Of a stretch of 37,479 nucleotides of DNA, positions 23,053-31,357 are shown in pieces (within the stretch, counting starts at the first letter, position 1; the number at the start of each line of letters is the position of its first letter). Below the pieces are notes generated by a model. That model made no database searches, was not told the DNA's origin, and saw nothing but the letters and a program-made list of their open reading frames with translations. A program made the translations under genes and the position numbers. Origin of the DNA: Bacteroidota bacterium (GTDB lineage: Bacteria; Bacteroidota; Ignavibacteria; UBA10030; BY39); NCBI GenBank assembly GCA_030682385.1, contig JAUXOG010000002.1, forward strand, positions 1 through 37,479, in the 5' to 3' direction.

Positions 23053-23077
23053 TGGATTAATGGATTTATGGAATGTT

Positions 23078-23108
23078 GCCCGCCCGCCTTCGTCGTTCGG
23101 GAGGGGAG
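23078..23108. repeat. Short GC-rich imperfect palindrome in the convergent gap
   Basis: A GC-rich block (GCCCGCCCGCCTTCG, then TTCGGGAGGGGAG) stands out in an AT-rich gap. Its left arm CCCGCCYGCC and central TTCG resemble the palindromic element inside the DNA glycosylase gene at 30673-30716. The relationship is by eye only. Confidence 0.4.
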
Positions 23109-30567: not shown

Positions 30568-31218
30568 TTATTTTCTCGAAACCCATCTGTTCTCTTTGAT
30601 ATAAAACCTCCACTGATGCTCTGAACCGTTGGTGATCCCAATTCTTGAGCTCGAACTAATTTTAGATTTTAGACCCGCCTGCCCCACACCTTCGGAACGG
30701 GAATGGGCGGGCAGGTTTGGGATTTTAGAAATATTTATTTCACCAAACCAGATTTGTTCTCCACACAAGTCAGTTCCGTTTTCATTCCTTCCAAGCCCAA
30801 ATGCCTGACAAAGTTTTGCCGGACCGTTTGTGAGATTGTAAATATTTTTTGATGTATCAATTTTTCTGTGAGTTTTCATTAATTCAATATTTTCAACAGG
30901 TTCAACAGCACGTATCAAAACAGCGCATCCTTTGCCTTCCTCCTCTGTTACAACGTTACAGCAAAAGTGCATTCCGTAAGTGAAGTAAACATACAGATGC
31001 CCGCCTTCACAAAACATTACTTCGTTCCGCTTTGTTTTTCCACGAAATGAATGACTCGCATTATCGTTTTGTAGATAAGCTTCTGTCTCAACAATTTTAC
31101 CAACAAGCAGCTTCCCCTTGTATTTTCGAATTAGGTATTTACCGAGCAAATCTTTTGCAACTGTTATCGTTGGACGAAGATAGAATGAGCGGGGAAGTCT
31201 TTTGAGGGAGTTTAACAT
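30568..31218 (-). CDS. 3-methyladenine (alkylpurine) DNA glycosylase, AAG/MPG family, with an in-frame palindromic insert
   Basis: The enzyme flips out and excises 3-methyladenine, hypoxanthine and related bases in base excision repair. In the 216-residue product, the catalytic region VETEAYLQNDNASHSFRG gives Glu46, Tyr48 and His56 (equivalent to human Glu125, Tyr127 and His136); KRNEVMFCEGGHLYVYFTYG and CAVLIRAVEP follow, then NLTNGPAKLCQAFGL and the closing SSSSRIGI and WRFYIKENRWVSR. Residues about 168-185 (LPAHSRSEGVGQAG and neighbours) are an extra loop encoded by the palindromic element at 30673-30716; relatives go almost directly from the ISK-like strand to the SSSSRIGI segment. The open frame extends upstream to a TTG at 31257, but ATG at 31218 gives a family-like start (LKRLPRSFYLRPTITVAKDL). 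Confidence 0.92.
   Translation of the reverse strand: MLNSLKRLPRSFYLRPTITVAKDLLGKYLIRKYKGKLLVGKIVETEAYLQNDNASHSFRGKTKRNEVMFCEGGHLYVYFTYGMHFCCNVVTEEEGKGCAVLIRAVEPVENIELMKTHRKIDTSKNIYNLTNGPAKLCQAFGLGRNENGTDLCGEQIWFGEINISKIPNLPAHSRSEGVGQAGLKSKISSSSRIGITNGSEHQWRFYIKENRWVSRK
30673..30716. repeat. GC-rich palindromic element inside the DNA glycosylase gene
   Basis: The element has arms ACCCGCCTGCCC (30673-30684) and GGGCGGGCAGGT (30705-30716), which can pair in two registers (CCTGCCC with GGGCAGG; CCCGCC with GGCGGG) around a central CACACCTTCGGAACGGGAAT. It is strikingly richer in GC than its surroundings and is flanked by GATTTTAG on both sides (30665-30672 and 30721-30728). It is read through in frame by the glycosylase gene. 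Confidence 0.7.
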
Positions 31219-31357
31219 CGCACTAATTTTTACTTGAAATATCAAATAAAAAACCAATACAAAATTTCAATAAATATATTGTATACTTTTTCAAAGAATT
31301 GAATTTTGAGTATTCGATATTATTTGAGATTTGGTTTTTGTTATTTGTGATTTTTAG

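Follow-up and report, generated by a model that had tools for sequence, protein, structure and literature searches.

A dispersed REP-like palindrome, apparently undescribed, found in frame in a DNA glycosylase gene and other conserved genes of an Ignavibacteria genome

INTRODUCTION

The window analyzed here, a stretch of 37,479 nucleotides from a member of the Ignavibacteria, carries a GC-rich palindrome in frame inside a predicted DNA glycosylase gene. This locus raises the question of whether the insert is a loop peculiar to one protein or a copy of an element dispersed in the genome. Most reports of protein-coding palindromes so far concern Rickettsia, Wolbachia, and a small number of additional lineages. 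A preliminary description, made from the sequence of the window alone, had suggested an undescribed element comparable to the in-frame palindromes of Rickettsia (RPEs) and had doubted that the GATTTTAG motifs on both sides, spaced by 56 bp, were simple target duplications.

RESULTS

The insert in the glycosylase gene

The window corresponds to contig C46 of a genome of 3.38 Mb in 140 contigs. The ORF containing the palindrome matches the methylpurine-DNA glycosylase family of Pfam (Table 1), and human AAG structures are its sequence matches among solved proteins. The element, CCCGCCTGCCCCACACCTTCGGAACGGGAATGGGCGGGCAGG on the plus strand, is read in frame on the coding (minus) strand as (N)LPAHSRSEGVGQAG, and the gene stays open across it because the copy measures 42 nt and is stop-free in that frame. 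The in-frame location given in the preliminary description was thus confirmed, as was the presence of extra residues: in an alignment with 30 orthologues of the order, the extra segment (IPNLPAHSRSEGVGQAGLKSK region) directly precedes the conserved SSSSRIGI strand, and none of the 30 orthologues carries it. The orthologue in a second genome of the same genus (locus L065 of genome G001; ~86% DNA identity) lacks the palindrome; this site consists there of four units of AAATCCG plus AAATC, a stretch that encodes KSEIRNPKSEI in frame. The gain with respect to L065 is 18 residues, composed of the 42-nt palindrome and a loop change of 12 nt. An orthologue from the same family (L066) contains neither heptamers nor palindrome at the insert site. 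In G044, a genome from another family of the order, the glycosylase contains an independent in-frame copy located at a different loop (PARRSPPLRTAGG; L274, L064, G044:C44).

Table 1. Features at the glycosylase locus, with their window positions, and other genes of this genome with in-frame copies
Feature	Position	Strand	Evidence or content
Host gene, methylpurine (3-methyladenine) DNA glycosylase	30568..31257	-	PF02245, E=5.8e-65; alignment of 30 orthologues
Palindromic element, 42 nt, CCCGCCTGCC...GGCGGGCAGG	30674..30715	+	Family copies genome-wide; missing in same-genus orthologue
Left heptamers ATTTTAG ATTTTAG and first base of split heptamer A/TTTGGG	30659..30673	+	Sequence; G001 site; genome-wide arrays
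Right heptamers, remainder TTTGGG of split heptamer, then ATTTTAG	30716..30728	+	Sequence; lag-7 periodicity over family junctions
Pseudouridine synthase with S4 domain			In-frame copy, 42 nt
HsdM			In-frame copy, 30 nt
HsdS			In-frame copy, 39 nt
Tyrosine integrase			In-frame copy, 39 nt
MvaI/BcnI-family nuclease			In-frame copy, 33 nt
Propeller protein with type IX secretion tail			In-frame copy, 21 nt
Type III Mod methylase			In-frame copy, 24 nt
Chorismate synthase			Array of 48-nt units, upstream of conserved GRHDPC segment

The site is laid out as ATTTTAG ATTTTAG A[42 nt]TTTGGG ATTTTAG, with the heptamer phase running on through the element. The GATTTTAG motifs are therefore part of an ATTTTAG/ATTTGGG heptamer array, and their 56-bp spacing results from the splitting of one heptamer with the phase kept (42 plus 2 x 7, i.e., 14). 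Their reading as a target duplication was rejected, and the doubt expressed in the preliminary description was well founded.

A family of copies in the genome

The reading of the insert as a unique loop was rejected by the other copies in this genome, which were counted on the basis of pattern searches and sequence stretches. A strict pattern retrieved 16 copies, a second pattern 59 raw matches, and a looser pattern 83 raw, partly overlapping matches; none of the three reversed patterns gave a match. Once overlaps were removed, about 60 places remained. A single occurrence, or orthologues with the same loop encoded by different DNA, was thus not what we found.

The family consensus, in right-arm orientation, is CCCGCCTGCC(AAAG)...(C)GGCGGGCAGG, with a length of 19 to 48 nt. 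The interior of canonical copies is a second, variable hairpin with covarying pairs: interiors of 7 nt have the form GCnnnGC (8 copies) or GTnnnAC (8 copies), with one copy of each mixed type (Fisher test on the 2x2 table, P = 0.003), and further covarying inner stems are GAAC..GTTC, GTCCGCC..GGCGGAC, GTCCCG..CGGGAC, and GTCCATC..GATGGAC. The 2x2 test gave a clearer result than permuting the inner stems within each length class, which had little power. Canonical copies fold better than shuffled sequences to a varying extent, with z values between -1.1 and -2.8. With its flanks included, the window copy had a z of -1.56, and 19 of 200 shuffles folded equally well; for the element alone, the interior of which is degenerate, the z was -0.88, no better than shuffles. 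The window hairpin is thus unremarkable on its own, and its statistical weight derives from the family, namely, dozens of copies in the genome versus none for the reversed patterns. Elsewhere in the window, the intergenic GC-rich stretch GCCCGCCCGCCTTCG (23075 to 23089) is possibly a decayed relative of the element.

In-frame copies in other genes

Inspection of the spanning ORFs of at least 150 aa, several of which were checked against Pfam or solved structures, revealed the element in frame in nine genes of this genome, the glycosylase gene among them (Table 1). This count leaves out four ORF-spanning copies in which the element is near the ORF end (L258, L264, L270, and L033), as well as L101, which has no left arm. 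In the comparison of Mod with PDB entry 6k0w, the alignment gap corresponds exactly to the eight inserted residues, and the array in chorismate synthase is an unaligned block with respect to 1r52. The host genes use several reading frames of the element and both of its orientations. Its length as a multiple of three is weak evidence of selection, since this is also common to many intergenic copies.

Several of these ORFs have additional features. The chorismate synthase gene (L252, G000:C65:45000-48000, ~1500-1710) consists at this point of tandem 48-nt units built on the element arms (TTAGRPACV..), which add ~64 residues. The Mod ORF (L248, G000:C42:13500-16500) contains several in-frame palindromes, including, apart from the 24-nt copy of the present family, a related CCTGCC..GGCAGG copy (RPASAIATAGRE) and a repeat pair TGTCATGCTGA.. 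(CHAERSEAS..) that resembles CGTC/TGTC-tagged repeats. In-frame palindrome-like inserts of other families are found in HsdM (L253; NPHPASPKGRG, CCTCTCCCAAAGGGAGAGG) and in the type IX secretion tail protein (L228; STSSGQVPASG, CTTCGACAAGCTCAGG..).

Empty sites, flanking heptamers, and target preference

Empty sites were sought in 1.18 Mb of sequence stretches of G001. Exact insertions with respect to this genome were found in the pseudouridine synthase gene (42 nt), in hsdM (30 nt), and at C27:23583 (42 nt), and none of these three clean sites has a target-site duplication. At the remaining orthologous places that lack the element in G001, the local sequence is more changed. The copy at C66:2369 is common to both genomes, and the two versions, like their flanks, differ by substitutions. 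The two genomes differ in their matches to the second pattern (59 versus 6) and to the looser pattern (83 versus 9), and two other genomes of the same family had none. Judged from these sequences, the several-fold contrast in copy number within the genus looks like the outcome of recent spread or rapid loss.

Arrays of AAATCYN heptamers are common in this genome and in some relatives, with 23 matches here and 29 in G001, as compared to 3 and 2, respectively, for the reversed pattern. Two preferences emerged from the flanks of the element. (i) Among 62 distinct flanks, taken from this and other genomes, 53 have a pyrimidine (T or C) immediately 3' of the element. (ii) The lag-7 match over the junction is 0.38 for the intergenic copies of this genome and 0.39 for copies of other genomes, as opposed to 0.26 at random positions, and lag 7 exceeds all other lags from 3 to 15 in both sets of copies. 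The element is at the center of another palindrome at 5 of 72 sites, versus 0.6 expected; such insertion is enriched yet concerns a minority of sites and was rejected as a general rule.

Some copies are arranged in tandem or nested within other palindromes, and 13 copies lie within or next to a single REP-like repeat, mostly as cgacc[element]ccgctggggtcg. Two short copies in this genome (L094, 8764, and L096, 15567; G000:C39) occupy the same position and orientation within another repeat, GTGTAA[element]TTCGTGGC, which suggests that composites can spread as units. At L272 (G000:C35, 1534-1740), four consecutive copies with TGACAAA-type heptamer pairs between them form a composite heptamer/palindrome array.

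These data bear on an explanation that dispenses with transposition, in which heptamer arrays and palindromes would originate and multiply through slippage of the polymerase, template switching at hairpins, and gene conversion, with the palindrome copied from one array to a similar one. Slippage has already been proposed for bacterial heptameric repeats (PMC4692102). The tendency of the element to lie in heptamer arrays with the phase kept, the tandem and nested copies, and the presence in G001 of heptamers without the palindrome at the window site would be in agreement with such processes. We nevertheless consider this explanation unlikely, because insertions into the array-free, ordinary coding DNA of hsdM and mod are clean, because the arms are nearly identical under many phylum labels (see below), and because conversion between arrays would not be expected to produce so strong a preference for a 3' pyrimidine.

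Spread among genomes

One form of the element was matched by 37 of 60 genomes of the order, and a stricter form by 1 of about 280 sampled genomes of the phylum outside the order. Across GTDB species genomes, at least 116 stretches contain the canonical form. The record titles among the GTDB matches listed name Ignavibacteria, Bacteroidetes, Chloroflexi/Dehalococcoidia, Deltaproteobacteria, Nitrospirota, Omnitrophota, Cloacimonadota, WOR-3/Stahlbacteria, PVC, and two candidate-phyla-radiation groups, about ten phyla overall; since all the matches listed are metagenome-assembled genomes, this list may be inflated by mis-binning. In the plasmid set, no match covered 80% of the query, and transfer on plasmids is unsupported by this search. 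In-frame copies elsewhere include those in alr (alanine racemase), with an 11-residue gap with respect to PDB entry 4y2w; in polA, between the 5' and 3' exonuclease domains of DNA polymerase I; in dnaX; and in a gene for a UvrD-family helicase.

Some REPs bind nucleoid proteins or have regulatory roles. The presence of copies in conserved genes across lineages, together with the covarying inner hairpin pairs, which indicate that the hairpin is conserved at the nucleic acid level, could mean that the insert is kept for a function, either as a useful protein loop or as an mRNA or DNA hairpin with a role in regulation of the gene or in binding of a nucleoid protein. This is very improbable, given that the host genes are unrelated, that sites and frames differ and both orientations are used, and that the window insert is missing in the same-genus orthologue; moreover, an element moving as a hairpin would equally conserve the hairpin. 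We give just as little credence to an artifact of metagenome assembly or binning behind the cross-phylum spread or the inserts themselves: the matches listed are all metagenome-assembled and no strong plasmid match was found, but the C66:2369 copy has diverged in two species together with its flanks, frames are preserved, gaps with respect to homologues have the exact length, the matches stem from many projects and from isolates bearing many different names, and mis-binning could swell the list of phyla but not create the family.

Relation to RAYT genes

This genome has ten matches to Y1/RAYT-type transposases (L075-L082). In this genome and ten relatives, the element does not directly flank the RAYT genes at the loci examined; an element arm is present within 4 of 38 RAYT loci examined, at a distance of ~0.5 to 1.5 kb. 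Its classification as a RAYT-linked REP was therefore rejected. Several of the RAYT loci inspected here have hairpins of their own on their flanks, which differ from locus to locus, e.g., CACCTCGATTTATCGAGGTG and CAGTTCACTGAAGTGAACTG.

DISCUSSION

The window insert is likely to be a copy of a dispersed REP-like palindrome that was inserted without duplication into a heptamer-array loop of the glycosylase, an enzyme that probably tolerates the extra loop. The copies at about 60 places, in frame also in other conserved genes, and the empty sites within the genus uphold the suggestion of an undescribed in-frame element. In the model that we propose, the element 5'-CCCGCCTGCC(AAAG)-variable inner hairpin-(C)GGCGGGCAGG-3' would insert as a unit without target-site duplication, favoring a pyrimidine on its 3' side and, in many cases, DNA made of heptamer repeats. 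In the species studied here, it would have entered an AAATC-type heptamer array already present in the loop-coding part of the glycosylase gene. The glycosylase with its insert is presumably translated and functional, and by analogy with some Rickettsia enzymes that tolerate RPEs, it probably accommodates an extra surface loop.

We infer movement of the element from the sequence comparisons above. The moving entity may be the DNA hairpin, and its mobilization would probably take place in trans via single-stranded DNA, by a single-strand transposase of the HUH/Y1 type or another single-strand route, by analogy with REP/RAYT and IS200/IS605. The hairpins recognized by the transposases of these two systems carry a guide tetranucleotide at their foot (PMC6006769), which by the same analogy would here be CCCG. 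The RAYT loci examined, at which the element is not a direct neighbor, argue against this view. A broader proposal, which we put forward tentatively, is that the family represents a third, CCCG-tagged class of REP-like elements that has its own target preference, moves within genomes and across phyla by a single-strand mechanism, and repeatedly adds loops to enzymes. If so, chorismate synthase, alanine racemase, DNA polymerase I, and DnaX would have acquired new in-frame loops.

In-frame behavior of this kind is now seen in mostly uncultivated bacteria labeled as many phyla, and the arms are so alike across these labels that common descent or transfer is needed. The family provides a natural test set for the spread of minimal DNA elements without an obvious transposase, as well as for proteins that gain short new loops. 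For annotators, the family is a warning that inserted repeats can underlie motifs of predicted proteins such as LPA..GQAG, PAR..LAGG, or CHAERSEAS.

Comparison with known systems

No earlier description of the element was found among the matches listed from the searchable text of the literature consulted, in which letters inside figures are not included. The reading that we favor is a REP-like family of mobile palindromes, apparently undescribed, that protein loops tolerate. MITEs such as ERIC, RUP, and Correia are likewise short, nonautonomous inverted-repeat elements that are sometimes fused in frame (PMC2229807), but the present element is far shorter, is devoid of separate terminal inverted repeats, and lacks a target-site duplication at the three clean sites. 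The RPEs and the Wolbachia coding palindromes are also dispersed, both intergenic and in frame in conserved genes, and apparently tolerated (PMC2229807). The comparison with RPEs made in the preliminary description holds for the in-frame insertion, here into unrelated conserved genes. The element is much shorter than RPEs (19 to 48 nt versus 105 to 146 bp [PMC2229807]), and the arms and the tag sequence are unrelated. In addition, the present host, unlike Rickettsia and Wolbachia, is not from an obligate intracellular lineage.

REPs share with the element the nature of short multicopy hairpins with an unpaired tetranucleotide at one end. However, the constant end of the element is CCCG...CAGG, which has neither tag of the GTAG and CGTC REP superfamilies: among 140 element ends, none had CGTC or GACG and none had GTAG, and CTAC was present at 3 left ends. 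REP families are genome specific, whereas here the same arms occur under many phylum labels, and the cognate RAYT gene of GTAG REPs is flanked by the repeats, in contrast to the RAYT genes examined here. Cyanobacterial SDRs, attributed to Elhai et al. (2008), are reportedly very small hairpin repeats in tandem heptamers, mutually nested and without an evident transposase. Their heptamer setting and nesting are like the lag-7 signal and the nested copies of the present element, the main feature of which is its in-frame insertion in conserved genes; SDRs were described from cyanobacteria. CGTC-tagged repeats, the tag of which is also carried by some RPEs, have no dedicated transposase (PMC3733652), and none is apparent for the present element. 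REPs are known from within coding regions and also in frame in tnpA-REP genes (PMC3733652, PMC6006769). The element thus behaves in the manner of RPEs and intragenic REPs, yet on the features compared, namely, length, the GTAG and CGTC tags, and RAYT adjacency, it belongs to neither group.
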